Shown here: positions 3,848 to 46,313 of the stretch, piece by piece
Numbering within the stretch: the first letter of the stretch is position 1
How the letters are laid out: each line of letters begins with the position of its first letter
Assembly: GCA_008477525.1 (NCBI GenBank)
Contig: SPDT01000002.1
Span: 1,736,001-1,800,000, forward strand
From: Hypomyces perniciosus
Lineage: Eukaryota; Ascomycota; Sordariomycetes; Hypocreales; Hypocreaceae
Length of the DNA: 64,000 nucleotides
Reading direction: 5' to 3'
The notes under the pieces: generated by a model
The model's input: the letters and a program-made list of their open reading frames with translations, nothing else
Database searches by the model: none
What the model was told of the DNA's origin: nothing
Made by a program: the position numbers and the translations under genes

Positions 3848-5280
3848 TTACGGAAATGGACAGAGGAAATAAGCTGCTCCAATGATGATGTAACTAGAAG
3901 CAAAAGTTAGCCCGAATCTTACAAGCTGTCTCTGTATTTTGGGGCGCCTTACATGGAGAGGAGCATGAGGCCATGTAGATATGTATACTGCCCATCCTGT
4001 AGCACCTGATTCACAATCATGACAGCAAGTAGTAGGATCCACGTCTGGGACATCTCAAAGAAAAGGTCCATGGCGCGGTTCATAAGCCAGCCAACGATGA
4101 CGAGGATTGGTAGAACAAAGAGCGCGATTTGTAGAATGCTGCCGATGATGACACTGATGGCGAAGTTGATCTTCTTCCTGTGCGATGCTGCTATCACCTG
4201 GTGTATCTCCGATGCATTGCTGGCCAGGGGGATGATGAACATGCCCACAAAAGTCTTTGTGATGCCGAGGGTCTTGATGGTGCCATCCAAATTCCGGAGA
4301 AAGAAGTACGTGCAGCCCATGACGATCAGTCCGGCAACGACCAGAATGACGGCAGCGACATACACCTTGTCTGCAGTCGGGGTATCATCGTCAATCATGG
4401 TGACTTCCTCTCCCACCGTTTCTGACGCCCTTGATGCTGCATCGTCGTCGTCGTCTGTCGCTTCGTGGTCACTTCGTTTCGTAGGAGTTCGAGGGACGTC
4501 CTCATACGCCTCCTGGTCGACGTCCTCATCCTCGTCCAAGAACAGATGAGAGTGTGTTTTGAACTGGAAATACTGGAACACAATATATATGCAAAGAAGA
4601 ACGGCGGCGGTGGCACGGCTGAAGGATAGAATTTTCGGCTTGATATCGATACCATCATCAGATTCTGGGAATGTCGCGTACAGAACTGCGGGCAGGATCA
4701 GCGCGACGGCTGTGATGAGCATCAGCGACGAGAGCGCATCGACAACTGCTGCGTTCACGGACAGGACGCCGGTGCCGCGGGCCGCGACGATAAAGCAGAG
4801 GCCCTGAACCTGTTCGGCGCAAAGAGTGGTCAGTGATGCTAACAATGGAGCTCCGAGAAGCTGAAGCAACTGACCATGAGAATATCCGAAAGAATGCTTC
4901 CCAGCATGGTAGACTGTGCAAGCTCCACCTCGCCGCGACTTACAGCCAAGAGGCCGACCTGAAATCCGAGTACCAGTTAGCAAATCGCGAAACGTGGCGC
5001 TGCCAAACTCCAGATGCTCCAAGACACTAACAGTCAGCTCAACAATATTCCCAAAGGTGGCATTGACCAGCCCGCCAACCAAGGTTCCCCAGCGGTTGTC
5101 AAACATGTCCGAGGCATCGGAGATGAGAGCCGATAGCGGCATGATCGCGACGAGGTTCAGTGCTGAAACTGCCACGGGATGCCATCCTAGGGCCTCGGCA
5201 AGGAACCCTAGAGGGACAAAGACCAGAAGCACATTGACGCTGATGAGGTAGTCCCTCACCAATCCCAAGAAGACCGACAT
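3848..5280 (-). CDS. CAX-family Ca2+/H+ exchanger, paralogue 3
   Basis: Exons 5280-5032, 4958-4875, 4809-3953 and 3893-3848 give 411 aa. The second exon is again exactly 84 nt. The first motif FGNIVEL is intact (GN at 77-78, E81). The second reads SNASEI at about 308-313, so N, A and E are kept while the leading Gly and the final His are changed, making this the least damaged of the three. A long acidic loop (DEDEDVDQE, then a run of five Asp) lies between the halves. It converges with paralogue 2 with 48 bp between stop codons, and diverges from the Ca2+-ATPase across 246 bp, a spacing that allows a shared promoter. Likely a vacuolar Ca2+ or other divalent cation exchanger. Confidence 0.9.
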
Positions 5281-5526
5281 TGATTGAGTGATGAATGGCT
5301 GGCTGCAGTCTGTGGCCTGAGCTGTGTTCTCTCACGTTCCCCGCAGCGATGACAGCCAAAACACCACCAAAAATCCAAAAGAAAATGGTATAAAGGACTT
5401 TAATGGGACATATGATGGACAAACCAGGGCCATTGGGGGCAATTGTTGCGGGGATCTTAACGACTCAAGCACAGCCACCTTGCACTGGAGTCCTGTCCTC
5501 GTAAGTGGTGTTGGCAGAGTGGTGCG

Positions 5527-8500: not shown

Positions 8501-9888
8501 CTTGCCCCATCTGCAGGTGCTCGCCAGGTCTAGTCCAGAAGACAAACGGATGCTGGTAGAACGGCTCAAAGACCTCGGCGAAACAGTGGCTGTGACTGGT
8601 GACGGTACAAATGACGGTCCAGCTCTGAGAGCAGCTGATGTTGGGCTTTCCATGGGCATCTCTGGGACCGAGGTTGCTAGGGAAGCCTCCTCGATAGTCT
8701 TGATGGATGACAACTTCGGATCGATCGTCAAAGCCATTGAATGGGGACGAACTGTGAATGACGCAATTAAGAAATTCCTCCACGTAAGTCTCCTACCGAT
8801 GAAACTTGGCAGACAGTCAGCTCACGACATCCTTAGTTCCAGCTCACCGTTAGCATCACCGCCGTCACGCTCACTTTCGTGTCTGCAGTTGCGAGCGATA
8901 GAGAGCAATCCATCTTGACGCCCGTCCAGCTTCTCTGGGTGAATCTGATCATGGATACCTTCGCTGCTCTCGCGCTCGCCACAGATCCTCCAAACGAAAG
9001 CGTCCATGACAAAAAGCCGAGCGCGAAAACAGACCCATTAATCTCAATAACTGGGTGGAAGATGATTATCGGACAGGCTTTATACCAGTTTGTGGTCATC
9101 ACCTCGCTAGATTTTGCAGGTGATCGAATCCTGGGATTGACTCTGCCAGAGGACACGAAAAGGCTTGGAACGATAATCTTTAACGCTTATGTGTGGATGC
9201 AGTTCTTTAATCTTTACAAGTGAGTGCCAATATGGCGTGCTATTTGATGCGTTGAATCTAACTCTGGTCTAGTAACCGCCGTCTTGACAACAAGCTCAAT
9301 GTTTTTGAGGATATTCACAAGAACCCGTTCTTCATCGCCATCAACGTAGCCATCATCGCAGGCCAGGTCCTCATCGTAAACTTTGGAGGCAACGCACTGT
9401 CTGCTACAAAACTCTCTGCCACGGAATGGGCTGTAACCCTAGTTCTAGGTGCGTTGTCCATGCCTGTTGCTGTCGTGTTACGCCTCATCCCAGACGAGTC
9501 GATCCAATGCCTGTTTAATGCCCCACACCACCTGATGTGGAATACAACAGTGGATAGTGATCAGGGACCCCGGGCGGACTTGCAGTGGTTCCAGGCCTTG
9601 GAAAATATCCGCTCTGAGCTTGTCGCTATCCGACAGTCACGCAGCTCCCGGCTACAGCGTCTATGCCGTGATAATTATGACCTAGTTAAGAACAAGGTAT
9701 TTACAGAGAGCGCCGACGGAGACGAGGGAGTGAACGAGAGATCTCCGCTACTTCAACGGCCCTACAGTGATCACGATCGATCACGATCGAGCTCAGTGTG
9801 TGGGCCTTCTCTGGTCGTGGCAGGGTTGGTCGCAGGCGGAGTGGCCGGCTGGCCTCCGACCCCAACTCCAACAACACCAATAGGATGA
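5527..9888 (+). CDS. PMC1-type P2B Ca2+-transporting ATPase
   Basis: A calcium pump of the plasma-membrane/vacuolar PMCA class. Exons 5527-6810, 6876-8783, 8837-9219 and 9273-9888 give 1396 aa, within the range of fungal PMC1 proteins. Landmarks in order: a long Ser-rich N-terminus with an eight-Glu run (bases 6291-6315); the PEGLP motif of M4; the phosphorylation site CSDKTGTLT (Asp about 662); KGAPE for nucleotide binding; the hinge TGDGTNDGPAL; and the C-terminal membrane segments. The first in-frame ATG of the open frame is at 5527, and its first ~80 residues look unlike the family, so a later or spliced start is possible. Together with the exchangers it would load Ca2+ into the vacuole and end cytosolic Ca2+ signals. 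Confidence 0.9.
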
Positions 9889-20138: not shown

Positions 20139-22084
20139 TCACAACGGGCAACTGCGAAACTCCTTCACTGGGCGCTGTTGTGCAATTTCATCCTTTGAAA
20201 ACCAAGTTCCATGCAACCCGTACGGCACTCGTTGTGGTAACTGAACGCGTGCCACTACATCCTTCATCGTCTTCGCGTCGATAATCCATAGCTCACCCTT
20301 AGCATCATCAGGTGCATTACCCTCTGCATCAAGCTGTGATTCGTCGAAAACGAATGTCAAGAGCCAGCCGTCATCCTCCGAATCACCCCCCTTACGCGGG
20401 ACAAATACACATTCTTGTGCATAAAATCCCTCAGGCATCACAAATATTTGAATAGGGTCATCCGGGTCGCCCGAGGCTAAGACTTCTTCGACCGATCGGT
20501 CGTCAACGCACCCAGATACGGGAGCTGGAGGGTTCTTGAGCCCTCTGGAAATGAGCTTCTGCACATTTGCCTTGGCCAAGCTGCCGATTTTGAGTATGTA
20601 TTCATCTTCCAAGTCATCGCCTCGGCCCACGGAGCAGCCGTAGACGAACCGAGTAGCAGACACAGCAAGGAGATCGGGCACATGGGGAAACTCGAATGGA
20701 ATAGCACTCAGCGCCCACTGCTGGGTAATTGTTCGATTGGCGCCCTCGACAGCAAATTGGTAGTAGTAAAGCCGGCATTCTTCCTTCAAAGTGGCTTGGT
20801 TGCTGGGCACGGGAATATTACCAGAGGCATAGACCATAGTAGGCCCGGTCATTCGGCACACGAGCATGTTGACCGTTGTCTGTGGCGTATCAGCCTTTAT
20901 GACTTCGTCCCATGTGTTAACTGTGTGGAAGATGCAACAGGCCTCTGTGGAAAACCATTGCACTTCTTGGGGCATGTAGCGTGGAAATACTCCAAACCGG
21001 GTTTCTCCTTTCGGGTTGAACAAGACCACCGGCTTGTTATGGGCCAAGTCGAGGGGATTAAGCGACAATGGCATGTCAATGATGACCGTGTGCCGGCGGG
21101 ACACACCAAAATCATGCATCATCTTTGGCGATGGGACGCCAGGCACAGTTCTGCCGAAAAGCTCATTTTCAGTGGTAGACGTGCTACTTGATCCGGCTTG
21201 GATAGAATAGCGGACAAAGGGTCGAACAAAAGTTGAATGAAACAGTAGCATTTCACCCGTACGAGGATCAATGTGAGGCTTTGTTCAAGTTAGCTTCATG
21301 TAGTACGTTGTCGTCGGATCCCAAGATTGCACTTACATGCGCAGTAGTCCACTCACGGAAAAAGCTCAGTAATCCGTTGTCCGTAAACCTGGAGCCTGGA
21401 ACTGTTCTCTCGGTCCCGTCTGGCTCTCCCTCGGCCCTGCAGCCGTCAAACCATCCAACCGTTTTGAGATCCGGGAGGGAGACCCGCATTGGGGGACCGC
21501 TTTCGCACATTGCCAGAATGCGGCCATTGTGGGATATAATATTCGTATTTGCAACGCTAATCCTTTTGATAGGTGTCAATGAGTGGCCCATCCATGAGCA
21601 GAGAACCACCCAGAGCGTTCTGAGCACGTCTCTGAGGATTGTGAGCAAAGACGATGCTGGATCGATCAGGGTTGCTATGCTCGGCAGGATGGGTGACCCC
21701 TTCCGGGACTTGGATTCCGCCAGAAAAACGTCCGTCAGCACATACTGGTTGCTGAACAGCGGCTGCACGTCCGATCCGTTGCCAGCGCGGCTCTTGCTCG
21801 GGTTAAAGTACACGGCATGAAGCATGCCGTGGCCGTCAAACCAATGCAAGGCACGCCTCGGGTCGCCATGGGGCAGAGGATTGCTGCTATTTCGCACATA
21901 CTGCCCGCCAATAAGCTCATCTGGTATCGTCCCCTGTATTTCGCATGGCTCTAGAGACAGCTGCTTCGAAACCGGGGCGAAGTTGCCATCAAGAAAGCTG
22001 CAAAATATTAGCTTATGGGGTGATCCAGTAAGGCGGCACGGTCATGGCTTACGGATGTTTCGGTGGATTCTTGATGTCTGCCAT
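20139..22084 (-). CDS. carotenoid cleavage oxygenase (CarX/CarT type)
   Basis: An RPE65-family non-heme iron dioxygenase of 610 aa. Exons are 22084-22053, 21997-21337 and 21278-20139. The first is only 32 nt and is joined through a clean GTAAG...CAG intron. The four iron-ligand histidine contexts are all visible: TAHPHID, MMHDFG, CIFHTVN and GLHGTW. The N-terminal EIQGTIPDELIGGQYVRN and WFDGHGML are family hallmarks (the second Gly-Asp-Gly is Gly-His-Gly here). Known fungal relatives cut beta-carotene to retinal (CarX) or torulene to apo-4'-carotenal (CarT/CAO-2). Length and N-terminus lean to the CarT side while the position next to carRA matches CarX, so the substrate is unsettled. It is transcribed divergently from carRA across a 1.25-kb region. 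Confidence 0.92.
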
Positions 22085-23330
22085 GATTTCGTTGGCCGAG
22101 CTACCAGGACCAGGCCAGCTTATTGACTGGGCACGAAAACGACCAGTTATGGTTCATGGCCATACGTATCATGAAACAAATTTGCCAGAAAATGACCCAT
22201 AATTGTAGGAAACGCGCGAAGAGGGAGTTTCTGTATAATAGCATCATGGTCCGCTTGCAAAGCTGCGTGATATTCATTCCCGAGTGTCATATGTCTCAGT
22301 GTGAGTGAGACAAGTTGATTAGTAGCTCCTTGGTTTTGCTCGAAAATTACGGAGTACATTACTCGTACGGAGTATACTACGAAGTAATAGCGCTGTCTGA
22401 AATGCGATGATACCCAGGTCTCGCTAAATTAAAAAAACGAGAATTCTACTGTTTTTCGTCTGAATGAATTCAGGCGGTGGCAGCGCCTGGATTTACTTTA
22501 ATTAAGATATTTTATTTAATTTCTATTTATTTAATAATAGTGCTATAATATTTATTAACTAGCTATTATTTCATTTATTTATTAAAAAATAAAATAAAAA
22601 TATAATAAATTTATTTATATTATAATTCAATATTTAAGTTAATATTACTATTAACATTTCTTTATGGTCAAGTACTATTATTTAATATTTTTATAAGCTT
22701 TTAACTTGCTATTTTAGGCTTTAATCCCTAACGCCTAAATTTTTTTAGGCGGATAAGAGAAGGTATATTTACTAGTAGTAGAATTAGCAGGTATATCTAC
22801 TTTATACTATCTCCACTTAAAAGCCACTTAGAACGCCACTAATCCTTACCTTTTTGGCTTACCGCTTTCGTATCGGATATAACCAATGTTCTTAATAGTG
22901 TTGCGGGCAGAATTCCTGTTTTTTTTAGCAAATTCCTTGGCATCTATTCCTCTTGAAGACATTTTGGCGAAGCTGTAAATCACCTGCTAGCTCGATATAT
23001 TATTTACAGGGGGGGACGGTCAGCAGGCTGTTTAAGTGGCTTTTAAGTGGAGACAGTACATTGTAATTGTACCCGCTAGTTCTAGGAGCAGATATACCTT
23101 TTTCAGTCTGCCTGAAAAAAATTCAGGCGTTAGGGATCAAAGCCCAACAAGTTGGTCTATATACTCATCATATTGTACTCCGTATGTACTTATGATAAAG
23201 CACGGCTATGTTCCTCCGCAAATTCAGACGAAGCCTATAAATTTGCTCTTGCTAGCACCCGAACAAACACCAACTATCGTTAAGCATTTTACACTGATAA
23301 CCGTTGCTCGACAAACTGAGATAATCCAGA
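22085..23330. promoter_or_regulatory. divergent promoter region of oxygenase and carRA
   Basis: This 1.25-kb spacer separates two head-to-head carotenoid genes and must hold both promoters. Bases 22490-22700 are extremely AT-rich. An inverted-repeat element occupies 22703-23153, leaving about 177 bp before the carRA ATG. TACGGAGTA motifs lie near 22350 and 22370, close to the oxygenase side, and another near 23174. No known light-response element was identified by eye. Confidence 0.5.
22703..23153. mobile_element. ~450-bp inverted-repeat (MITE-like) element
   Basis: The left arm (22703 to about 22832) and right arm (about 23034-23153) are imperfect inverted repeats of roughly 120-130 bp. Both contain, in order from the outside, AACTTG, GGCTTTRATCCCTAACGCCT, a T7 run with AGGC, AGGTATAT and CTCCACTTAAAAGCCACTTA. 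The left arm differs mainly by G-to-A/C-to-T changes (GCCTAAA against GCCTGAA, TTTAATCCC against TTTGATCCC), as RIP would leave. The interior of about 200 bp has no coding capacity. Each arm end also carries its own small palindrome around the T7 run. No target-site duplication was established. This is a non-autonomous DNA-transposon type element. Confidence 0.7.
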
Positions 23331-25437
23331 ATGGGACTCGACTATTGGTTTGTGTAAGTTATCCAGTCTGTTCCTTCCGGAAGCCGAAATACATGCTCAA
23401 ACTCATAAAGCCACTTTACGTGGACTATTCCACCCGCCCTGTTGATGACGACCGTCTACTGGCCCTTTTTCACTAGACTCGAGTTCTTTAAGATATCTAC
23501 CCTGATTATAGTATGTCTATTCTCCTTCACCCAAACAGTATTTTACTAAAAACACAATACAGATCGCCGTCCTCGCCACCATACCATGGGACTCATACCT
23601 TATTCGGAACAATATCTGGTCTTATCCAGCCGATGCAGTGGCTGGGCCCACGTTGTTTGCTATTCCCTTAGAGGAAGTCTTCTTCTTTGTCATCCAGACC
23701 TATAACACAGGCCTTCTCTATGTGATCTTGACCAAACGATTGGTACTGCCAGTGTACCTGCATCGATTGGCAAAGGGGCCAATGCCACATATTGGATCGT
23801 TTGCCATTTTGATAGGATTTGTGACTGGCGCCGCTGGTATCTGGTCTGGTGGCAGTTGCACTTACATGGGCCTGATTCTAGTATGGGTGTGTCCCTTCAT
23901 GCTGTTGCAATGGTGAGTGGTTTTGCAGATCCGTCTCTGATCATATGATGTGGGCTAAAGTACCGAATGTGCTTAGGTCAATGTGCAGCCGCTTCCTGCT
24001 GGCACTGCCTCGCAAAGAGGTCCTCCTCTCAATCGGGATCCCCTCTTTCTACCTCTGCATGGTTGATAATTTGGCATTGCAACGTGGGACGTGGGTGATC
24101 GAGCATGATACAAAAATGAGTTTTCAGGTTTGGGGTTCGCTAGATGTGGAGTATGTCCCATCCCATCTGAAAGGCCTCCCTCACGTAACGAAACTAACAC
24201 ACGCGTCATTCAGAGAGGCCACTTTCTTCTTCGTCACGAATATCATGATTGTTTTCGGCCTGGTCGCCATCGACCACGCCATCGCCATTGCTGAGTACCA
24301 AATCGCCAGCTCGCCCGGAACTTTGAAGCCGTTCCCGTCACTGGGCAAGCTCATGCTCTTGTACTTTACTGATCGTGCAGAAAATCACGATCAGAGCTTC
24401 CTTCAAGGCTTGGACGAGGCAGTTCATATCGTCTCTCAGAAGAGCCAAAGCATGTATATGGGTAGTGCCATGTTCCAGAGTGGATTGCGAATCGATCTGC
24501 TCCATCTGTATGTCAATACGAGCTTCCAGCAATACAACCTTTCTAGTTGCTAACTGGTGGTCGTAGGTATGCTTTTTGTCGGGTTATGGATGACCTCGTT
24601 GACGAAGCTCTCGATCGCGAAACGGCCCATCTCGTAATAGGGCAATGCTCCGTGGCCTTGGAAAGCCGGTTTAGTCAACTGACCCCAGGTGGGAGTAAGA
24701 AGCAAGAGAATGCTCTCTCTCAGATGAAAGAGCAGGGCAGTCAACATGACCCAATTGCGCCGTCTCTCCTCTCCTCCATTGCTCTCCTACCAGCTTCTCG
24801 GCTCACTGTCGATCCATTGTTCCACCTCCTGGCAGGGTTTAAGACTGATCTTGATTTCTCTGTCGAGAACCAATATTTCCCTATTGTCACGGAGAAGGAC
24901 TTGGAAACATATGCCTACAATGTTGCGAGTTCTGTCGCGGTATCGGTGCTCGAGCTGGTTTTGGAACACTACCGATTGGCGTGCCCCCAACCACCCGAGC
25001 AACAGGAGAAAATCATCAAGGCAGGGGAAAAGATGGGCCAGGCTCTCCAATACGTTAACATTGCACGCGATATCGCGCATGATGCGGCCATTGGTCGGGT
25101 GTATATCCCTACAACCTGGCTGCACGAAGAGGGCCTGAAACCCGCCGACGTCATTGAAAAGCCCCATGATCTGAGAATCACGAAGCTCAGAAATAGAATG
25201 CTTGATAAGGCGGATGAAATGTACCGCATGAGTGTGGATGTCATCAATGAGCTACCGGGTGAGACATGTGGTGCAGTCCGGACGGTCGTGGAGAGTTACA
25301 TGATGATCGGGAAGACAGTCAGAAAGGGGTCGCGCCAAGTACGGCCTGGAAAAGGCAAATTAAAACTGGCGCTGTGGCGGAGACTCTGGGTTGCATGGAG
25401 GGCCATGTGTAATACTACGAGTACGAGTAATGTATGA
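23331..25437 (+). CDS. carRA: bifunctional lycopene cyclase/phytoene synthase
   Basis: The central carotenoid enzyme: its C-terminal domain condenses two geranylgeranyl diphosphates to phytoene, and its N-terminal domain cyclises lycopene ends. Six exons (23331-23353, 23411-23510, 23563-23912, 23977-24150, 24214-24507, 24567-25437) keep one frame and give 603 aa. The N-terminal third is a multi-helix membrane domain with PWDSYLIRNNIWSYP and FAIPLEEVFFF, typical of CrtYB-like cyclases, repeated in the second half (NLALQRGTWV, EATFFFVTN). The synthase part has RVMDDLVDEAL, the first Asp-rich motif, and YVNIARDIAHDAAIGRVYIP, covering the second. No frameshift or lost key residue seen. It is divergent from the cleavage oxygenase and close to the rest of the pathway. 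Confidence 0.96.
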
Positions 25438-27168: not shown

Positions 27169-28142
27169 TCAGCTCTGTAATCCATCGCCAGTCTCACACA
27201 GACATTGACAAGCGGCAAATGCCACGAGGATCCCAAACACTGGGCCTCCCATGAAGTCCAGTATACCGTAGAAAACGCCTTCCCAAGCAGGGGAAATAAC
27301 GTTACCACCCTCGCCCAGTCCCCACGCCAGACCATAGCCAGTCCATAAAACTCCAACTGTCGAGCTGCAGAGCACATACATGCGCTGCATCTGCCGCCCT
27401 TGCGCCGACGCTAGCTTGTACCCAGTGTGGGCAATTAAGAATGCAATGCCGGCACAGGCAATGGCGCCGTAGAAACTGTGTTTCACGTCAGTAATCAGTC
27501 AAACCGAAAGGTGGTGTTACTAATACTTGACACGTACTAGTAAGCCCACTTGTATGAAGTTGGAATTGCCGCTCCGCCGTAGCCTGTCGCCATGACGACA
27601 AAGATGAAAAAGGCGTCGAGCAGACTGACTTCAATCGGGGCGGAGACCAGGAGGAAAAGTTGGGTGTTAAGCAGGGGGGTGCCAACGAGCCTTGCGGAAA
27701 GTCAGTGTACTGATATCAGTCGTTCCTTGGAACGAGATAGATGAGCATACCACATCAGATAGCGAATCCAAAACACCTGGCGAGTGGGATGGCTCCCTGG
27801 AAGCGCTGACCACTCCCCACGCTCGAATTCCACCTCAACTGCCACCCATCCGAGATCAGCGGCCATGGCGAAATAGCCCATAGACATAACATAGCAGGAC
27901 AGAGCAGAGAGATGACAGAATATTGGCAATCGTTTCTTGCGAGTCGTCAAGGCTACGGCAAGGAACAGAACCCCGAAAATGGTAAAAAGAGCTGTCAGTG
28001 CCCAGTACCTACTTCAATGTCAGGTCCCCCCCTCTTGTCACCATGCCGGAACTTGTACCTACCATGCTTTTCCCCAATCCGAAACTGTAATGTCTGCTGG
28101 GTCCGTGTGGACGGTGATGGCTCTCTTGGAAAACACCGCCAT
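27169..28142 (-). CDS. microbial-rhodopsin homologue without retinal lysine
   Basis: A seven-helix opsin-family protein of 265 aa, at the carO position beside carB. Exons 28142-28063, 28008-27751, 27690-27538 and 27475-27169 join in frame. Family signals: DWGKAWYWAL at helix A; RQVFWIRYLMWLVGTPLL at helix C; GYGLAWGLGEGGNVISP before helix G; and the helix-G segment ILDFMGGPVFG. Using bacteriorhodopsin numbering, Arg82 and Asp212 are kept, but Asp85 is Met, Asp96 is Gln, and Lys216, which forms the Schiff base with retinal, is Gly. It therefore cannot bind retinal covalently or pump protons in the known way. It resembles the opsin-related proteins (HSP30/YRO2/MRH1 class), which also lack the lysine. 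It is divergent from carB. Confidence 0.88.
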
Positions 28143-28618
28143 TTTCCTGATTCAAGCAGGAATTTCGTCCCTCACAAGGTAAAATATGCTGTAAGAACGA
28201 TGCTGGTTGCAGGGAGGATAGCACCACGGGAAGATGCCCACATTATCATGAGTCTGAGTTGGCACACTTCCCCTACGTAACGTACTATAATTTAATAGCC
28301 TGAGCGACGGCACGCACCGTAGTACTGGTAAAATAGCCCATGCTCCAGATCAATAATTACCGGTTAAGTTAGAGCGGATCGAGCCATATGCCGAATAGCC
28401 ACGACAGGGATACAGGGACAAAAGCATTTAATAGGCGAGACAGTCTAGGTACCCACGCACTCGTATGTATTTATCAGGATAGGTTGCGTTTAATTCCGTG
28501 ACTGTTTGGGCATTCACGTGGGACCCATCAAGCTTTAAGATGGTGAAAAGGACCTCCCGAGTCCCCTTTTGTTTAATGTCCAAGTAAAATCCAGAAACCA
28601 GACTAATATCACGTCACA
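28143..28618. promoter_or_regulatory. shared opsin/carB divergent promoter
   Basis: This 476-bp spacer lies between head-to-head start codons (opsin-like at 28142, carB at 28619). In Fusarium the equivalent carB and carO promoters are light-induced together, so co-regulation is likely here by analogy. No specific factor site was identified. Confidence 0.5.
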
Positions 28619-30386
28619 ATGGCCCCCCCTACCGTTATTATCATTGGTGAGCAGCGCAATACTTTTTATATGGGATAATTCTGACCATTTTTGTTCTAGG
28701 TGCCGGCGCAGGTGGGATATCCACGGCTGCCCGTCTAGCCAAGAATGGATTCAAAGTCACGGTGGTTGAGAAGCATGATTTCACAGGAGGTAGATGCTCG
28801 CTCATTCGCCGAAATGGCTACGTGAGTGCTTCTTCATCTACTTATCGTTGGGTACATCTTCTAAACGGGTGCTTAGAGATTCGATCAAGGTCCTTCCCTC
28901 TTGTTGATGCCAGAGGTCTTCCAACAGACCTTTGAAGACCTCGGCACATCGCTTGAGGATGAAGACGTTCACTTGTTAAAATGCGATCCAAATTACCGCA
29001 TCTGGTTTGCAGACAATAGCTCCTTTGAGCTTTCCACTGACCTCAGTAAAATGGGGAAACAAATCGAGCGCTACGAAGGCCCAGAAGGCTTTCAACGATT
29101 TCTGTCCTTCATGGCAGAAGCCGGAAGACACTATGATTTGAGTATGGTGCATGTCTTGTCAAAGAACTTTCCTCATCTCCTGAGCATGCTCCGTCCAGAT
29201 TTCTTGAAGTCGGTATTCACGATGCATCCTTTTGAAAACATATATGGTCGCGTTAGTCGGTATTTCAAGTCGGAAAAGCTCCGTCGCGTCTTTACCTTCG
29301 CCAGCATGTACTTGGGGATGAGCCCGTTCGACGCTCCCGGCACGTATTCATTGCTGCAGTATACGGAGCTGGCGCATGGCATTGCCTATCCTACGGGCGG
29401 TTTCCAAAAGGTAAGCATTTTCTAATGGGGAGTGGCATTTCACAAACTGACAATGTTCATAGGTTCTGGACGCCCTGGCAAAAGTTGGACAGCGGTTAGG
29501 TGTGGAATATCGGCTGAATTCACCTGTCGAGTCCATCATTGTGTCGGAAAAGAGCGTCGCGCGCGGTGTTCGACTGCAGTCGGGTGAGGAGCTGTTTGCC
29601 GATCTCGTGGTGGTCAACGCCGATCTGGTTTATGCCTACAACAATCTGCTACCACCCACACCGTCTTCACGCAGCCTGACCAAACGACCAGCATCTTGCA
29701 GTAGTATCTCTTTTTTCTGGTCACTCGACAGGGTCATTCCAGAGCTTCTGGGGCACAATATTTTCCTTGCCGAAGAGTACCGGGAAAGCTTTGATGCTAT
29801 TTTCAAACATCATAAGCTCCCGAACGAGCCATCATTCTACGTCAATGTCCCCAGCAGGATCGATCCATCTGCGGCACCAGCAGGCAAAGATGCTGCGGTG
29901 GTTCTGGTACCTGTTGGGCATATCGATTCGTCAAATCCCCAGGATTGGGATGCCATCGTCAACTTTGCACGTGAATTCGTCTTGAGTACGATTGAAGCGC
30001 GCACTGGAGTCCGCGGCTTGCGTGATTTTATACTACATGAATCGGTGGACACTCCGTTAACCTGGCAAGCCAAGTTCAATCTCGATCGTGGTGCGATTCT
30101 GGGTCTATCGCATGACTTCTTCAATGTGCTGAGTTTCAGGCCAAAGATTAAACATGCCAGTATTAACAGGCTTTATTTCGTGGGCGCCAGCACACATCCG
30201 GGAACCGGTGTCCCGGTATGTTTGGCTGGTGGCAAGATTGTGAGCGAGAAGATTATTCAGGACTGGAACCAAACATCGAATTCAACGTGGGGAGTAGTTC
30301 AAGGCTTCATCTCATTAATTGTCTCCCTTGCTGTAGCTTTGCTAGCCTTCATATACCCGAACGCGGCAGCTTTAATCGCCCACTAA
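28619..30386 (+). CDS. carB: phytoene desaturase
   Basis: An FAD-dependent desaturase that introduces the double bonds turning phytoene into lycopene and, in fungi, further to 3,4-didehydrolycopene. Exons 28619-28646, 28700-28821, 28877-29410 and 29463-30386 give 535 aa. The dinucleotide fold is visible at the start (VIIIGAGAGGISTAARLAKN), followed by FTGGRCSL and FDQGPSLLL. The C-terminal bacterial-type desaturase signature appears as YFVGASTHPGTGVPVCLAGG. A hydrophobic C-terminal helix (about residues 510-530) probably anchors it in membranes. It is a little shorter than many fungal homologues, but no internal break is seen. It completes the core pathway with carRA. Confidence 0.96.
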
Positions 30387-31558: not shown

Positions 31559-34500
31559 ATGGAGCCCCTTAGCCCGTTTTCCAGTGTCAGCGCTGTCACT
31601 GAACTATCCGTGACGGTCATTTCACTGTGTTTCCAATACTCCAAAGACGTTAAGAATGCAAGAGCTGAGATCGAACAACTACGCCGAGCGGTCAACAACC
31701 TCCAACGTATCTTGGAGAGCGTTGAGGATCTGCGCGGCAGTCCCGATAATGCGAAGCTCAAGGATACACGTCGGCTTGTTGGCGCCATTGATGACGGTCA
31801 ATTGCTGTTACAAAGACTGAACGAGGATCTTTCTCCAAAAGGACACCGCAAGATCATGCACAAATTCGGCATTCGCGCTCTGAAATGGCCGCTCCAAAGC
31901 AAGGATGTCGAGAGGATGGTCTCTGATCTTCGCCAGTGCATAGAGACTATTTCCATGGGTCTTCAAGTCGACCAAACGTAAGTCCATTCTCTCCATACGT
32001 CCTCATAAGCTATAACTGACAAGGAACCAGGAATATACTGCTAGACATCGACCAGAAGGCGGTACTTGACAGGCTCCCTATTGCAAACGGCGCTTCTTTC
32101 GACTCTTTTGACGAAGCCCGGAAACCAAAATGTTTACCAAACACTCGAGTTCATCTTCTTAACGAGATATCCAAATGGGCCGATGACCCAGACTCTCGCG
32201 CTGTCTTCTGGTTGAATGGTATGGCGGGCACTGGGAAGTCCACCATCTCTCGAACTGTTGCCCAGTCCTTGGCAACCAGCAACCGCATTGGAGCGAGTTT
32301 TTTCTTTAAAAGAGGTGAAACTGACAGAGGGGGCTTGCTAAAGTTCTTCACAACGATTGCTGCCGATCTTGCAGTGAGACAGCCAGCAATTGCATCACAC
32401 CTGAAACAAGCCATCGACGCTGACCCCAGTCTCTTGGGAAAGTCGGCACGAGAACAGTTTGAAAAGCTCATTCTGGGTCCTCTATCCAATATTTCGCAAG
32501 ATTCTAAAATGAGAAGTCCTATCATTTTCGTCATTGACGCCTTGGATGAATGCGAACCAGACAATGATGTGAAAGTTCTCATCCGCCTCTTTTCTCAAAC
32601 CCGAGACCTAGTCTCTCCAAGAGTAAAGGCTTTTCTTACTAGTCGACCTGAACTTCCGCCCCGTATAGGTTTCGGGGAGATCAACGGCAAGTATCAGGAT
32701 CTCATCCTCCATGAGGTACCAGAGTCTGTGATCGAGAAAGACATATGGACCTTTTTCGTGGACGAGCTGTCCATCATCCGACGCGAGTTCAATAGTTCGG
32801 TAGCGGGGAATCGAAAGCTTCCGGATGGTTGGCCTGGGGATAACAACATCCAGACCCTTGTGAAGATGGCAGTTCCTCTCTTCATCTTTGCCTCTACCAC
32901 ATGTCGTTTTATTGCCGATCGCAATTGTGGAAGCCCCGAAAAGCAGCTTAAAGAGGTCCTTCGTTACCAAACAAGAGCCCAGGAATCACAGCTCGATGCC
33001 ACGTATTTGCCGGTTCTAAATCGACAGATCGTCAAGTTATCCCGTCAGCGGAAGGCCATGGTTGTTGAAGAATTTCGAGCTATTGTTGGATCAATCGTCA
33101 TTCTCGCAAATCCCCTCTCAACTGTTGCGCTATCTCAAATTCTCGACGTTCCCCAGGATATCATTGCTAACCGACTGGATATGTTACATTCTGTTTTGAG
33201 CGTCCCGCCGTCAGCAGAAACACCTGTGAGGTTGCTGCACCTCTCTTTTCGGGACTTTTTATTGGATCCAGAAACGCGTGAAAAAGCCGAATTGTGGGTG
33301 GACGAGAAAAAAACACATGAGAATATGGCAGCTCATTGCCTACGTGTGCTCAACAACCTCAAGTCGGATCTTTGCGGCATTAAGGCTCCAGGTACACCGC
33401 GCTCAGATATCAATCGCAAGACGATTGACTCCTGTCTGCCCCCCGAGCTTCAGTATGCTTGCCTGTACTGGGTGAACCATTTACAGCGATCCGGAACCAA
33501 ACTCATCGATGGGGGCCAAGTCCATGAATTCTTGTTGCTCCATTTCCTCCATTGGCTGGAAGCATTAAGCCTCATGGAAAGGGTTCGGGAAAGCATAGGC
33601 CTTATCAAAGCGCTGCAGTCGCTCTTGAAGGTAGGGCAATACCACAAATTATATTGCGACTATCACTCACTGATCACGTATGATGTAGCCTCAATCCAGT
33701 ATCAAGCTGTCCAAGTTTCTGAATGATGCCAAGCGCTTCACGCTTGCCCACGTCTCAGTTATTGAGTCTTGGCCGCTTCAGATATACTATTCTGCACTGG
33801 TTTTTACGCCAGAGGAGAGTGTAGTGAGGATTAACTTTAAGGATGACTTTCCCCCTTGGCTGTCTCTTGCACCACAAGTAGACCAAAAATGGGGCGCATG
33901 TCTACAGGTCTTGGAGGGGCATAGACATTGGGTGATTTCTGTTGCTTTTTCTCACGACTCAACATTGGTGGCCTCAGCTTCATGGGATAAGACAATCAGG
34001 GTATGGCTCGCCGATACGGGTGAGTGCTTGCAGGAACTAAAGGGGCATAGTTCGGCTGTTGAGTGTGTCTCCTTTTCACACGATTCATCGCTCCTAGTTT
34101 CTGCCTCGTTTGATAGTACGATCCGCATTTGGCGAGCCGATACAGGTGATTGTATGCGGATACTTGAGGGCTATACTGCCGCTGTTCACTCGGTGGCCAT
34201 TTCGCACGACTCGGCGCTTATAGTGTCGGGCAGTGGGGATAAAACTGTTCGGATATGGGATGTGAGCACAGGGAATTGCATCCACGAGTTCCGGGGTCAT
34301 ACCGAATCGGTACGGTCTGTGGCATTTTCACACGACTCAACGCTCGTGGCATCTGCATCGGAGGATGGGACCGTCCGCATATGGAGTGCCGACGATGGCA
34401 CCTGCAAACATATTCTGAAACACAGCGATGGAGTATATTCCGTCGCTTTTTCTCATGACTCAATACTCGTGGCATCTGCCTCAAATGGCGGCATACGACT

Positions 34501-35914
34501 TTGGCGAGTCGATACAGGCAACTGCGACCGGGAATTTGGGAATCGTGCCTTCCGATTTTTCTCCGCGGCCTTCTCGCCCGACTCGGCCTTCATCGCATCA
34601 GGTGGATCCGACCAAACGATTCAGATTTGGCGCACTGATACGGGGGATTGCGTGCAAACATTCAAAGGCCACACCCGCGATGTTATGTCTGTGGTTTTTT
34701 TCGCACGATTCGACACGCATCGCATCAGCCTCAGATGACAACACAGTCCGCATTTGGGATGCTATTAGTGATGACGATAGTCCTCGGAACCCCAAAAGTC
34801 GAAAACAATCAGCCTCCGCTACGACACTGGACATCCAGCGCGCCGATACAGGTCGCCATACTGGGGCCATCGAATCAGTCATCTTCTCGCATGACTCAAC
34901 ACTCATAGCGTCAACAGCTTACGATGACGAAAAAATCCGAATCTGGCACGCCGATACTGGTCGTTGTATTCAACAGCTGGATGGTAATGACAACAAGAGT
35001 CTATCGCATTCTCTCATGACTCCTCGCTTCTAGCAGCTGTGGCAAGGAAATCAATTCGCATCTGGCAAGCCGATACAGGCGTTTGCATTCATAAATTCGA
35101 TTATAATGTCGAGATTACGTCCAGTCCGGAATTTTCCCGCCACCTAAAGCTCTTTGCTTTGGGTTACGATGACGGGACGGTTCGGGTGTGGCGCGTCGAC
35201 ACGGGCGATTGCATTCACACCCTCACAGGCCATGAGGGCCATATTTTCTGTGTGGCCTTTTCGAACAATTCAACACTCGTGGCATCAGGCTCGGGCGATA
35301 AAACGGTCCGCATATGGGATGTTGAAACCGGCAATTGCATCCGTGAACTGGAAACACATGACCATGATGTTCGAACCATTGTATTTTCTCACGACTCGGC
35401 GCTTGTGGCATCTGGCTCAGGTGGAACAATCTGCATTTCCCGTGTTGATACAGGCCATTGCATCCAGACACTTAAACACCCAGCTAGAGGTGGCCTTCTA
35501 TCGATAGCCTTTACACATGACTCTTCTCTTCTAGCGTCTAGCTCCAATCAGGAGATCTCGATATGGCGAACAGACACAGGTGAACTGATGCAGAGTATTG
35601 ATGTTGGGTACCAGTCTCTCCCTCGCCTAGAATTCGAAACCGACCAGCATCGGCTGCTTACTAACGTTGGCTATTTTGATATCGATAGCAATCAACACAA
35701 CAGCATTTCTGCAACAGGGATCTATCGTCGCTCTGGCTATGGCATCAGTCCAGATAAGCGTTGGATTATGTGGGGTGAAGACAACTTGCTCAGACTGCCA
35801 CAAGAATATGAACCGAAGTGCTCGGAGGTAAGGGAATTCACAATTGTCCTTGGAGATAGAACAGGCAGAGTCGTTATCCTTGGCTTCTCGGCAAAGGTAT
35901 TTCCAGACTTCTAG
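31559..35914 (+). CDS. NLR protein: SesA/HeLo-like, NACHT, WD40 (frameshifted)
   Basis: A STAND-class receptor like the HET-E/D family. Exon 31559-31977 encodes a helical N-terminal domain of the SesA/HeLo-like kind. Exon 32031-33630 carries the NACHT domain with Walker A GMAGTGKST and Walker B FVIDALDECE. Exon 33707 onward encodes WD40 repeats with the recurring VAFSHDSTLVASAS and IRIWxADTG units. The intron 33631-33706 (GTAGGG...AAG) is inferred because it restores the frame exactly at LSKFLNDAKRF. Two breaks interrupt the repeats: an extra T in the seven-T run near 34695, and a lost base near 35001 that restores the original frame, which then runs to the stop at 35914. Either an eroding allele or assembly errors. 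Probable role is non-self recognition and programmed cell death. Confidence 0.8.
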
Positions 35915-41334: not shown

Positions 41335-44174
41335 CTTGACGACGTGGGCTTGGTGGGGAGACAGCTTGCAGAAGTGTAGGGGGCAATTGAGTCAGTGTGA
41401 GGATGAGAAGTGCTCTGACAACATTGTTGTTAGGCATATCTTCACAATTGGAGCGATTGAACGTGATATATATGCTTTTCTGAGCAGGCAATCCGTGCCT
41501 CAGCAGTAGTTGGACTTACCGCCTGGGCTGGGGACTTTGCTGAGGCCATTTTGGAATTACTACAAACGCAGAGACGGCAGCAAACGTCTGTAGCGACCAA
41601 CAGCAGCACATCCCAGACCTTGCTCAACCGCAACTCTACCAGGTCGAGCAAGAGATAAGGCACGCACCCGCTGCAACTTGACGCATCACATCCAAGGCCT
41701 TTGGAGGCTGCCAAGTGGTCCAATCGACAAGGTTGTGAGGAAGATGAGGCACAAACAACGTCGGACAAACCCATCACCATGCGGGGATCTCGGACGTCCA
41801 CGTAATTTCTTGGTGTTGCACGGTTGAGTCGTCCTCACAAGCCGACCTGCTACTTGCGCGTCTCATTGGCTCTACTACAAGCTGCTGCTACACAATAACC
41901 CCTCTCTACCGTGTTCGTAGCCGTCTTATTATGAGAATGGGCTTCTTGGCAGCCGATCCTGACTAATGGTGCTCTCATTTTGCACAGCCGCACGTAGTTA
42001 TCCGTTGACCGGTGTGGTTTTCATGCGGCTCATCACCACTCGGAGAGCAAGTCCTAACGAATGCGAATCCCAAGTGGTCTGTGGGGGCTGTGAGACATGA
42101 TATGATCTTGTCTAGGCCACCATCCTTGGTCGTTTGCCTGGTATCCATCCAGCAATATGCAGGCTGACTGATGAGGCTCCTCTGTCAGAGCACCCCGGCT
42201 CCACACGCACCTCGGATAACTAATGGATTGTCGATTTTGGTGTCGATCCGGTGCCCCTGGTTCACTGCCGGATCTGTGTGGCCCTTTGCGGGAAAAAAAA
42301 GAAGGCGGGCAAATCCTCCGCACATAACTACGGAGTAGTACTCGTCAAACGAAGAAATCGTACCCACACGCTCCTCAGTATACTCAGGCGCTTTCGGCAC
42401 GTTGCCGTGTTCACACGACTAGATTATAGCCGCCAGCAAACGCGGGATCCCGTTTATCCTGGGTTTGCCGGGGTCGGCGACGCCGAGAAAAAGGCTGGCT
42501 GTTTTATGTTTCCCGTTTCGTCGTCTTTTTGCGCTTCCACGGTCTTCTATTTTTGTTTGGTTCATACGCAGGGGTGCGCGGTAGTTCCGTATGGCTTGCG
42601 TTTGTGTTTGTTGCGTGCATCATCGCATCACATGCGTCCACCACCAGCAAACTCAGCATCCCGACCGATTTCCCACGACAAGACGACAAGATGAGGAGCG
42701 GCCAGTCTTTGAGTTGGTGGGGACCGGTGAAGACTGGCTGTGGTATGTCTCGTTTTATTTCTTTTTTGTTCTTCATCGTGGTGGTGTCGGGGAGATTCTG
42801 TTTCGTCGCTGCTGTATGCTGTGTTACGCACATATCATATAGTCAGAAAATCGCATTGACAGGAGTTTCCCCGGCGGTACTACGCATGGAGTGTTGCAAT
42901 TAGAGAAAAGGAGGGCCAATGTACCGATACATCCAGTCAAGTCGAGGCCCTCGGGCTCTTGGGTCTTGGTCCGATATGCCTTCGGGAGATGATGTGATGG
43001 CATGCGGGGATGCTCCTCTAATGGCGTGTTATCGGATGCTTCTCATCACATTGTAGCAAACCGCCTTGGCAATCCGATATAGTCGGCCAGGCAAGGATTG
43101 CACGCATCCGAGACACTGGGGCGAGCCTTGATGATTCGATACAATGCGATATTCGGTCAAAGATGTGGAGGATTTGGCTTCTTGCTTCAGGTGTGTGGCC
43201 CACAATGCGAGCAAAGAACAAGGGTGTCGGAGTTTGATGACGCTGCGTATGCCGAGTCTTGAACACGTATTATTCTGCCCGCATACGATGCTACCACCCC
43301 TCGTCGAGTCGCATCCAACTGGACGACTCAAACTCCGAGCCTCGTCGCTACAATATTCCAGTATTCGCGTTGCACAAGCAGGCAGCCGACATTTCAGCTC
43401 GTTCTGGAGGCCACTATCACCCTCACCGGTCAGATAGAGTGGTTGACACCGTCTGTTTGAGTTGTGGTCTCGCATCGGAGACCGTCAGAGCGAGTTGAGT
43501 CTGGATCGATGCGGGTAGATGCTTCGGAGTACAAATGCCCCTCTCTCGTCGACTTGATTAACTATGTTCCACAGTCTTCGCTGTTCTACCAAAGCTATCG
43601 GCGCATACGCACATCACCTTGACTTTGACATCTTTGCCTCTTTGACCCACTGACTCTTCTTGGCCATCTTGGTCTCCCCAACCATCTTGACTTTCTGTTT
43701 GATCTCCTTGGTAACCTTGATCTTGATACCTTGGTCATCATCTTCATCATCTCGATCCCCCCCATCACTGTCAGTTCTTTGAACTCTTTGAACTCCTTGG
43801 TCCTATTGACCTCCTCGATCATCTTGATCTCCTTGATCCCGCCAATTAGTTTGCGCTACTCGGTCACCTAGGTCACCTTGTTCACCTTGACCTTTTTGAC
43901 CACTCTGCTCACCTCGATTCCACTGATCACCTTCACTTCTTGAACTCTTTGAACTCCTTGGTTCATTTGATCACATTGATCATCTTGACCTCCTCAGCCC
44001 CACCAATCAATCACCTTGCGCTCTTCCGTCACTCTAATCACCTTGATCACGTTTCTCTTTATCACATTGATCTCATTAATCGCCGGAGCTCCCTGGCCAT
44101 TGTAATCACCTGATTACCTTGACTACCTTGGTCTTGATCCTTGATCCTAAGTGGCAATCAAGGAAATCCGCAAC
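41335..44174. other. 2.8-kb region without a supported gene
   Basis: Several short open frames occur but none shows a domain, and splice-joined models were not convincing. The stretch 42500-42850 is rich in T and resembles an untranslated or promoter region. A TACGGAGTAGTACTC motif lies near 42328. The last 550 bp is a degenerate tandem repeat, described separately. Confidence 0.5.
43600..44150 (+). repeat. degenerate CACCTTGATC-type minisatellite
   Basis: The stretch is built from variants of short words such as CCTTGATC, CACCTTGA and TTGATCACCTTG, spaced at roughly 9-15 bases and strongly diverged. It also includes two near copies of TTGAACTCTTTGAACTCCTTGG (near 43780 and 43945), suggesting a higher-order duplication of about 165 bp. 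It ends about 25 bp before the HET gene ATG, so it forms most of that gene's proximal promoter or leader. Confidence 0.65.
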
Positions 44175-46313
44175 ATGAACGCCTTGCAGTACACCGGAGA
44201 GGCATCCCATGCCGGCGCCATGGCTGGTTCTCTGATGCACAACACCTCCACCACTTCCCAAACAATCTGCCCTGTCTGCTACAACTTGCAGCCATTTCGT
44301 CATCGCAGTCCACATTCAGCAACGAGCGCATGGAACACACAGTCTGGCCGGCATCAAACGCTAGCTAATATAACGAGAAGACCTTACCTATGTCTCTCAG
44401 ATATTAGTACTAGGACGTTGATTCAGACTCGGGATATCAATCCTGCTACCGGGAGGCCGTTTCACGACTGCCGTTACTGTCGTCTTATATGCGAGATGTT
44501 GGACCAATTCTTTGCCAGTGAAGATATGAATTGGGTTACGCAAACCAGGCTTGGCATGTATCAAGAAGTAACCATACGGGTTTGCGAAGGCTTTCCCTTG
44601 GTGGTTACTTACACTGGATACATAACCGACAACCAAGAAATCACACAGGAGCACCGAGCTGAATTTGAGTTGTCCTGCAGCTCACCTCAGGACGTGCTGA
44701 CGGTTGGTGTCCCGTGTACGGGTCTCCCATCGCCACAAGTCGTGGGCACTCCTGACCGGTGTTCCATGGACTTTTTCAAGAGACGCATTCACGAGTGCTT
44801 CAACCTGCACCCGGGATGCCAGAGGCTGTGGCCAGACTTTGTGCCAAAGCGGCTCCTGTATCTGGGTGATGGCTTGAACAGGCTCAGACTCTGCGAATCG
44901 CCGCCTACTGATGCCAAATGGGCTACACTCGGCCATGACTGGGGAGACTTGGGCCTGCTGAAGCTCACGAGCCGCAACATGGAAGCCTTGAAGCAGAACA
45001 TTGATTTCATTGAGTTGCCTGCGACGTTTAGGAATTTCATCCTAACGTGCCGCGCCCTCTCCATCGACTGGCTCTGGATTGATGTGCTCTGTATCGTCCA
45101 GAACTGCACATCGGACGGGACAGAAAATTCAGTCGTGATGGGGAAGATTTTCCATGAGGCTCTCGTTGTCTACGTCAGCAAACCGTCCACTCCCCGTGTA
45201 CCGCATCTTGGAGCCGAAGATGATGACTGGAGCACCAAGACACTGCAGTTCGAGACACCACTCGGCGTACAAGTTCCTATCAACGTCCGCAAGCGGTATC
45301 ATTCGTACGCTTCTCAGGATCCCGGCCAACTCAGCCCTACACTGATCGCCATTGGCATCTGGGAGTCGCTGAACGGGATGGGACCGGTGCATGTTCCAGG
45401 GTTTGCCTTTGAGGAGCCTTTGCGAGCGTGCCGGGTGTTGCATCTTACTCCAAACGCCTTCTACTACACGTGCAAAACGCATCGGGTCGCGTATGATTTC
45501 CACACCGAGTACGCTCTCTCACGTCTGGATACGACCGACCCTATTCCGGATGACATCAGGTGGCGAGAGATGGTCGAGGTGTACTCGATCAGGCTCGCCT
45601 ATACCCCTGAGAAGCTCTCGGCAATAGCTGATACGGCTATGAAGATGCCGCAAGCACCTGATAATCTGTTTCTGGCGGGTCTTTGGCGCAGCACCATCTT
45701 TGCTGATCTTCTGTGGTACGCCAGGCCCTGCCCTGGAATCACCAGCATGACGTTGACTTTACCGGAGTCTGAGCACCGCACTCCAACTTGGTCGTGGGCG
45801 TCGCTCAATTGCGGAGTGTTGTGGCATCATTTCGAGTCCTTTGTGTCGATTGCTGAAGTCCAGGCGGCATATTGCGTTGTTGATGATGACGATCCTTTTG
45901 GTGCTACAACTACAGGCGTCATCAAGTTCAACGGCCGCATGACTCCCTGTGGGATTTTCCATGACGAGGACGAAGAACGTCATTACGCTTTCTATATTCA
46001 TCCAAACGATCCCGAGCCAAGAGCTATATGGTTCGCGAGCGATGGCAGGCTTGCGACGAGGCCACACTCTGTATTCGCTTCTTCCACTCCTTTGATGCAG
46101 AGGTATCGCCGTGAGATGGGAAATGTGAGTCAACTCAGGGGTAGCGGATTCATCGCTATGCTGGGTCATACTGGCACGCATGGCTTTGTTGGTCTGGTGT
46201 TGACTGCGTCGGAGAGGTACGGCTGGGGGTTCTTTGAGCGGCTCGGGGTGATTACGAACATGGATCGGGGTTGGTATGAGTGTGGACGTCAAATGAATAT
46301 TTCGCTGGTTTGA
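44175..46313 (+). CDS. HET-domain protein
   Basis: A heterokaryon-incompatibility protein of 712 aa in one exon. The ATG at 44175 is taken as the start because the longer frame opens with GTG. The N-terminus has Cys pairs (CPVCYNL, DCRYCRLIC). The HET domain is visible at about residues 255-345: KWATLGHDWG (family consensus SHxWG, with the Ser and Cys changed to Gly and Asp), then LPATFRNFILTCRALSIDWL and WIDVLCIVQN. The C-terminal part has PTWSWASLNCGV, a motif usual in the long fungal HET proteins. HET proteins trigger cell death on non-self recognition. The altered GHDW is a possible sign of relaxed function. Confidence 0.88.
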   Translation: MNALQYTGEASHAGAMAGSLMHNTSTTSQTICPVCYNLQPFRHRSPHSATSAWNTQSGRHQTLANITRRPYLCLSDISTRTLIQTRDINPATGRPFHDCRYCRLICEMLDQFFASEDMNWVTQTRLGMYQEVTIRVCEGFPLVVTYTGYITDNQEITQEHRAEFELSCSSPQDVLTVGVPCTGLPSPQVVGTPDRCSMDFFKRRIHECFNLHPGCQRLWPDFVPKRLLYLGDGLNRLRLCESPPTDAKWATLGHDWGDLGLLKLTSRNMEALKQNIDFIELPATFRNFILTCRALSIDWLWIDVLCIVQNCTSDGTENSVVMGKIFHEALVVYVSKPSTPRVPHLGAEDDDWSTKTLQFETPLGVQVPINVRKRYHSYASQDPGQLSPTLIAIGIWESLNGMGPVHVPGFAFEEPLRACRVLHLTPNAFYYTCKTHRVAYDFHTEYALSRLDTTDPIPDDIRWREMVEVYSIRLAYTPEKLSAIADTAMKMPQAPDNLFLAGLWRSTIFADLLWYARPCPGITSMTLTLPESEHRTPTWSWASLNCGVLWHHFESFVSIAEVQAAYCVVDDDDPFGATTTGVIKFNGRMTPCGIFHDEDEERHYAFYIHPNDPEPRAIWFASDGRLATRPHSVFASSTPLMQRYRREMGNVSQLRGSGFIAMLGHTGTHGFVGLVLTASERYGWGFFERLGVITNMDRGWYECGRQMNISLV

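Follow-up and report, generated by a model that had tools for sequence, protein, structure and literature searches.

An opsin without the retinal-binding lysine in a carotenoid gene cluster of Hypomyces perniciosus, and its possible role in holding a polyene

Our analysis of a 64,000-nucleotide stretch of the Hypomyces perniciosus genome (contig SPDT01000002.1 of assembly GCA_008477525.1, forward-strand positions 1,736,001 to 1,800,000; hereafter the window) revealed, within a carotenoid gene cluster, an intact opsin gene whose product lacks the lysine that binds retinal. By its seven-helix fold and PF01036 homology this product is assigned to the type 1 (microbial) opsin family, and the aligned sequences of its close relatives in other fungi indicate that the Schiff-base lysine and the counter-ion Asp85 (bacteriorhodopsin numbering) are lost throughout the clade. 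The gene, its exons and three codons placed by alignment with bacteriorhodopsin are as follows:

27169..28142, minus strand: lysine-less opsin gene, 4 exons, 265 amino acids (gene model, Pfam match and relatives)
28142-28063, 28008-27751, 27690-27538 and 27475-27169, minus strand: exons of the opsin gene (gene model)
27244..27246, minus strand: codon GGC of Gly241, at the site of the retinal-binding Lys216
27753..27755, minus strand: codon ATG of Met112, at the site of the counter-ion Asp85
27660..27662, minus strand: codon CAA of Gln123, at the site of the proton donor Asp96

The reading frame of 798 nucleotides encodes 265 amino acids with no internal stop, and the introns of 54, 60 and 62 nucleotides are all GT-AG. 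An earlier note on this DNA, made by a model from the letters alone, had given coordinates, strand, product length and residue calls that all proved correct against the gene model and the bacteriorhodopsin alignment. The product matched the Pfam family Bac_rhodopsin (PF01036) at 71.2 bits (cut-off 24.6), and in a protein search its four nearest relatives, from three other genera, showed 65-70% identity over 84-100% of its length. The predicted structure of a Penicillium relative (P0002) is a confident seven-helix opsin.

With glycine at the Lys216 site the usual retinal Schiff base is impossible, as the earlier note had argued. Arg82, Tyr83, Trp86, Thr90, Tyr185, Trp189, Glu204 and Asp212 are kept relative to bacteriorhodopsin, and the features that define the photoactive rhodopsins CarO, NOP-1 and LR (the Leptosphaeria type) are missing, namely the helix-G lysine, Asp85 and Asp96. 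A corrected read or a splice form restoring the lysine, either of which the earlier note had named as fatal to its claim, did not emerge when both were examined. Helix G lies wholly within exon 4, so that alternative splicing around it cannot restore the residue, and a splice artefact is ruled out; the GGC codon differs from AAA and AAG at three bases, so that one read error would be insufficient, and a sequencing error is ruled out by this together with the occurrence of the same loss in the relatives. A lysine moved elsewhere in the protein was also ruled out, as none of Lys 6, 25, 51, 52, 160 and 184 is aligned beside the pocket; Lys160 corresponds to bacteriorhodopsin site 134, away from the pocket, and is also present in lysine-bearing opsins.

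The protein search returned 13 relatives, 10 close and three more distant, and the three distant ones keep the lysine. The close relatives belong to Ilyonectria, Cladobotryum, Hirsutella, Penicillium (two), Cladosporium, Trichophyton (three) and Arthroderma, and the genera that were looked up span three classes and four orders (Hypocreales, Eurotiales, Onygenales and Cladosporiales). Helix G is reached by eight of the 10 sequences, none of which has lysine there (glycine in seven, cysteine in one). Among the 125 proteins listed by this search together with a profile search (best 120 of 1280 family matches), lysine is present in 114 and absent from eight, the remaining three (P0004, P0010 and P0118) having no letters at helix G and being unscorable. 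Set against the 114 of 125, the complete absence of lysine from the eight close relatives argues that the loss is not due to chance, and its occurrence in several fungi implies a lasting redesign rather than a sequencing slip. Two public gene models in this group look wrong: P0004 (Cladobotryum) stops before helix G, and P0009 (Hirsutella) is off register in helix C, where it has cysteine at site 86 and histidine at site 83 and looks mis-modelled.

In a 129-row tree including all 125 listed opsins, the 11 sequences of the lysine-less set formed one clade (SH-like approximate likelihood-ratio test, SH-aLRT, 100), and two smaller trees, with 35 and 27 of the listed opsin matches, likewise recovered the lysine-less sequences as one clade (100/100 with seven rows and 100/99 with six). 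All three trees set this clade and the rows that we call CarO-like apart from the LR-type opsins (SH-aLRT 97 in the 129-row tree; 100/98; and 100/100 with the root on the LR-type rows). The label CarO-like denotes tree position and, for three rows, a contig shared with an oxygenase; CarO and NOP-1 themselves are not among the sequences.

Thirteen positions (Arg82, Tyr83, Asp85, Trp86, Thr89, Thr90, Met118, Trp182, Tyr185, Pro186, Trp189, Asp212 and Lys216) are invariant in 111 lysine-bearing opsins. In the 10 rows of the lysine-less clade that were compared, site 85 holds five different residues, site 96 is glutamine or glutamate except for the serine of the mis-modelled P0009, valine occupies site 118 in nine rows and cysteine occupies site 145 in all 10. 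The aromatic residues Trp86, Tyr185 and Trp189 are retained in all eight full-length clade members; P0010 to P0013 and P0118 are left out of the pocket table, and P0004, P0009 and P0010 are not counted as full-length. Eight sites are fixed oppositely in the clade (at least seven of eight) and in the lysine-bearing opsins (at least 90% of 111), and three of these belong to the pocket, including the lysine site. Mean pairwise identity within the clade was 0.716 at 23 pocket sites versus 0.557 at 129 other membrane sites, a contrast equalled by 132 of 10,000 random draws; the test used six clade rows (the window, P0001, P0002, P0003, P0005 and P0006), 12 of 60 CarO-like rows and 10 of 51 LR-type rows, with pocket sites and helix limits that we take to be those of the family. 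The ring-cavity sites named in the available text of PMC4915679 are valine, tyrosine or phenylalanine, and tryptophan in the eight full-length members.

The opsin gene lies in a cluster with the order oxygenase (minus), carRA (plus), short-chain dehydrogenase/reductase (SDR; minus), opsin (minus) and carB (plus), the other members of which are:

28619..30386, plus strand: carB, phytoene desaturase, 4 exons, 535 amino acids (TIGR02734, 439 bits)
28143..28618, no strand: divergent intergenic region of 476 bp that separates the start codons of the opsin gene and carB
26908-25949 and 25893-25870, minus strand: SDR gene, 2 exons, 327 amino acids (PF00106, 84.5 bits)
23331..25437, plus strand: carRA, lycopene cyclase / phytoene synthase, 6 exons, 603 amino acids (PF00494, 170 bits; TIGR03462, the CarR cyclase domain, 123 bits)
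20139..22084, minus strand: carotenoid cleavage oxygenase, divergent from carRA, 3 exons, 610 amino acids (PF03055, 377 bits)

The combination that defines a fungal carotenoid-opsin cluster, that is carRA, carB, a cleavage oxygenase and an opsin together, is present with the SDR gene added, and the matches to TIGR02734, PF00494, TIGR03462 and PF03055 confirm the carotenoid setting that the earlier note had recognized. That note had also placed the opsin head-to-head with carB, which holds, and next to carRA, which does not: an SDR gene that it left unmentioned intervenes, so that the direct neighbours of the opsin are the SDR gene and carB. Among the families shown, none closer than PF00106 exceeded the cut-off for the SDR product. 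The motif GATCGA, presumably a possible light-response element, was rejected as a signal in the opsin/carB intergenic region, as its background in the window is 0.78 per kb and the single copy there, at 28377, is therefore uninformative.

According to the available portion of PMC5715946, the Fusarium cluster includes carO, and its carX and carRA are arranged divergently. The Hypomyces cluster resembles this carX-carRA-carB-carO arrangement in combining a type 1 opsin with carRA, carB and an oxygenase divergent from carRA; unlike the CarO-like rhodopsins, its opsin lacks Lys216, Asp85 and Asp96 and is encoded between carRA and carB, an interval that also holds the additional SDR gene. Lichen fungi usually have the order RPE65-type oxygenase, synthase, desaturase and opsin, as given in the text accessible from PMC11457338.

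The retinal supply that the earlier note took to be encoded beside the opsin is not established: an oxygenase divergent from carRA is present, but in the tree this enzyme belongs to a different clade from that of CarX and CAO-2, both of which were represented by provisional reference sequences. In a protein search (best 120 of 1587 matches listed), the listed matches to the cluster oxygenase included enzymes of Cladobotryum (70% identity), Ilyonectria (66%), Hirsutella (62%), Penicillium (two, at 57 and 56%) and Nannizzia (56%), a species set that closely resembles that of the lysine-less opsins; identity to the provisional reference sequences was 47% for CarX and 49% for CAO-2. A tree of 49 rows, including 44 of the 120 listed matches, united the cluster enzyme and those relatives with a second Hirsutella enzyme, Ophiocordyceps and four Aspergillus in a 13-row clade (100/100), outside which CarX and CAO-2 paired together (100/98). 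The oxygenases of Candelaria, Thelocarpon and Peltula, which share a contig with lysine-bearing opsins as judged from equal-sized contigs, also fell outside this clade; in Candelaria the locus tags of the two genes are three apart. These sequences suggest a tendency for the lysine-less opsin to occur in company with a separate line of oxygenases. The torulene-cleaving CarT type, our first thought for this enzyme from the provisional CAO-2 sequence, was unsupported by either the identities or the tree.

A genome search found three RPE65-family loci. The two further RPE65-family oxygenases have long open frames (818017-819600 on contig C4 and 1854964-1856550 on contig C16) and, in contrast to the cluster enzyme, have 6vcf and RPE65 as their nearest solved structures; they are a possible retinal source outside the cluster.

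Lysine-less microbial opsins are already known in fungi, algae, bacteria and archaea, and their role in fungi and microbes is treated as an open question in the available passages of PMC10056346 and PMC4915679. For a lysine-less opsin within a fungal carotenoid cluster, no description was found in the open-access literature, with subscription journals mostly uncovered. Haloarchaeal opsin-related proteins (ORPs) were judged to be without a retinal pocket, several aromatics having been lost, in the portion of PMC4915679 that is available; clade-wide lysine loss is common to both groups, whereas the haloarchaeal proteins lost pocket aromatics that the fungal clade keeps.

We propose, tentatively and as something less than probable, that the lysine-less opsin originated among the CarO-like opsins of fungi and non-covalently holds an apocarotenoid or other polyene made by the cluster. 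Once the Schiff base was gone, the counter-ion would no longer be needed, leaving Asp85 free to drift, while the polyene cage (Trp86, Tyr185 and Trp189, with Arg82 and Asp212) would have stayed under selection; the kept cage and the freed counter-ion site would together point most readily to polyene holding without a bond. The ligand would be a cluster polyene, either an apocarotenoid aldehyde or, if the SDR reduces the aldehyde, the alcohol, for which a lysine would be useless, and the opsin may then work in the membrane, independently of light, as a receptor, carrier or store for it. The earlier note had raised non-covalent apocarotenoid binding, an idea that would gain some support from the retained aromatic cage. 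A more elaborate scenario, which we consider rather doubtful, is that of a receptor or carrier clade within a ligand-making cluster, in which the oxygenase shifted its product and the lysine and counter-ion were dropped together with the cage kept. If true, a type 1 opsin would serve as a chemical receptor in the manner of a G-protein-coupled receptor. The tie to the cluster would narrow the candidate ligands to a few, and no second convincing opsin is at hand to mask a phenotype; with the cage kept, the function would therefore be directly testable.

Several results weigh against non-covalent polyene holding. Pro186 is lost in all 10 clade rows and Trp182 is replaced by phenylalanine in the three Trichophyton members. 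The pocket contrast is larger in the lysine-bearing opsins (0.912 versus 0.669 and 0.977 versus 0.782), and buried core sites are generally conserved in membrane proteins, so that the pocket contrast speaks only weakly for a ligand, and burial alone could explain part of the conservation. Family profile comparison gave no sign of retinoid specificity in the SDR. Six rows of the oxygenase tree carry the label 'species or kin with a lysine-less opsin', which requires four changes on that tree; Nannizzia counts as kin there, the opsins compared being those of Trichophyton and Arthroderma, and the Ilyonectria oxygenase and opsin come from two different species. No oxygenase of Penicillium diatomitis, Cladosporium or Trichophyton appeared among the best 120 of 1587 matches listed. 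Linkage of lysine-less opsin and oxygenase elsewhere is judged solely from equal-sized contigs in Cladobotryum (4.08 Mb) and Penicillium sp. DV-2018c (5.04 Mb), and the contigs carrying the Hirsutella opsin and oxygenase are unequal in size. In Trichophyton rubrum the opsin is reported to lie on a different scaffold from the three carotenoid genes in the accessible part of PMC4059230, which argues against linkage being needed.

It is also quite conceivable, if again short of probable, that the protein belongs to the fungal ORPs (HSP30, YRO2 or ORP-1) or is closely sister to them, and serves without a ligand in the plasma membrane as a stress protein or regulator, with its position beside carB a functionless relic of descent from a CarO-like cluster gene. 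The membrane chaperone that the earlier note offered as its other idea is just as conceivable as its apocarotenoid binding. Of the four clades into which ascomycete opsin-like proteins have been divided, HSP30 and ORP-1 are without the lysine, the other two being NOP-1 and CarO (available text of PMC5796164), and the Hypomyces opsin shares this absence with HSP30 and ORP-1. Like the fungal ORPs (HSP30, YRO2, MRH1 and ORP-1) it has no lysine and carries substitutions at Asp85 and Asp96, and our reference ORPs, provisional sequences of three yeast proteins (HSP30, YRO2 and MRH1, with no filamentous ORP-1, CarO or NopA), also lack Asp85 and the lysine and have glutamine or glutamate at site 96. 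The clade differs from them in its retained cage and in having glycine or cysteine at site 216, where or near which these provisional yeast sequences have leucine or phenylalanine.

The trees bear on this ORP membership in both directions. In the fuller tree (35 listed matches) the yeast ORPs grouped with a lysine-bearing protein, P0011 (98/95), beside the lysine-less clade; forcing the yeast ORPs and the clade together cost 9.5 log units, and this arrangement was not rejected (approximately unbiased test, p-AU 0.081). In the tree without P0011 and HSP30, YRO2 and MRH1 joined the clade (80/84). Long branches limit the evidence both for and against ORP kinship. Because the yeast ORPs group with the lysine-bearing P0011, separate lysine losses in the clade and in the ORPs would be slightly preferred over one loss. 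P0011, which comes from a metagenomic source, keeps Lys216 and Asp85 despite that grouping, and would be, if real, an ORP-lineage protein with an intact retinal site. Names and pairings given by others lean towards ORP kinship: the Trichophyton members are called 'Heat shock protein 30' in UniProt, and the opsin of a Wangiella cluster is paired in a table with Neurospora NCU01735 (PMC4059230), itself listed as an ORP (PMC3778014), which, as far as the available parts of these two papers go, points to a possibly close relation between the lines of CarO and the ORPs.

A search of the whole 44.0-Mb genome (23 contigs), made exon by exon, used the Pfam family (twice), the opsin itself, the lysine-bearing opsin P0016, the provisional yeast HSP30 sequence, the Leptosphaeria rhodopsin and P0011 as queries. 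Across the 44.0 Mb this revealed no further convincing opsin, all queries matching the opsin locus alone apart from a weak stretch on contig C4 (a match to P0016 at 6142823, E 0.1); an opsin gene with many introns could be missed by an exon-by-exon search. No second ORP was found either, and the opsin gene could therefore fill the ORP role. Plasmid records gave no match, and among viral contigs one stretch matched a peptide pattern and none encoded a relative.

The retained cage that the polyene-holding proposal draws on would also suit retinal or a relative held without a bond in a protein still light-sensitive outside known rhodopsin chemistry, and bacteriorhodopsin without Lys216 works at reduced efficiency with aminated retinylidene compounds (PMC4915679, in the text available). 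We regard such light sensing as very unlikely, as the counter-ion and the donor aspartate are both absent, no lysine of the opsin lies near the pocket (Lys160 falling at site 134) and retinal supply is not established. Still less probable is a decaying relic of carO, to which the loss of three pumping-relevant residues might point: frame and splice sites are intact, identity to proteins of three other genera remains at 65-70% over 84-100% of the length, the changes are common to the relatives and the pocket sites are still constrained. The least probable role is that of a regulatory partner of a true rhodopsin, for which the role proposed for bacterial lysine-less rhodopsins in tandem with a working pump is a precedent; among the lysine-less Rh-noK proteins of bacteria and algae, some bacterial ones stand with retinal genes in operons, beside a proteorhodopsin (available passages of PMC10308929 and PMC7714340), whereas no second convincing opsin was found here by the exon-by-exon search.

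Other features of the window and genome were recorded alongside the cluster. A transposon-like element at 22714-23147 lies between the start codons of the divergent oxygenase and carRA genes. It has nested inverted repeats, with arms at 22714-22746 and 23115-23147 (91% complementary) and at 22779-22837 and 23026-23084 (80%), and its matches in the genome, its own copy counted, fill 52 rows spread over several contigs. Eight copies of a 5.8S pattern occur on contigs C1, C6, C11, C14 and C23, three pairs of them about 15.9 kb apart, and sit on small contigs or near contig ends; they are probably ribosomal DNA units split by the assembly. The ITS region of the genome resembles that of a Hypocreales fungus. 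Downstream of carB, at 32020-35914, a frame for an NACHT/NPHP3-type nucleoside triphosphatase is followed by a WD40-repeat frame, together a gene of the STAND (signal transduction ATPase with numerous domains) type resembling NOD-like receptors, and a frame for a HET-domain (heterokaryon incompatibility) protein lies at 44151-46313. At the other side of the cluster, within 3949-8918, a Na/Ca exchanger-like frame (minus strand) adjoins a P-type cation ATPase spread over two frames (plus strand).
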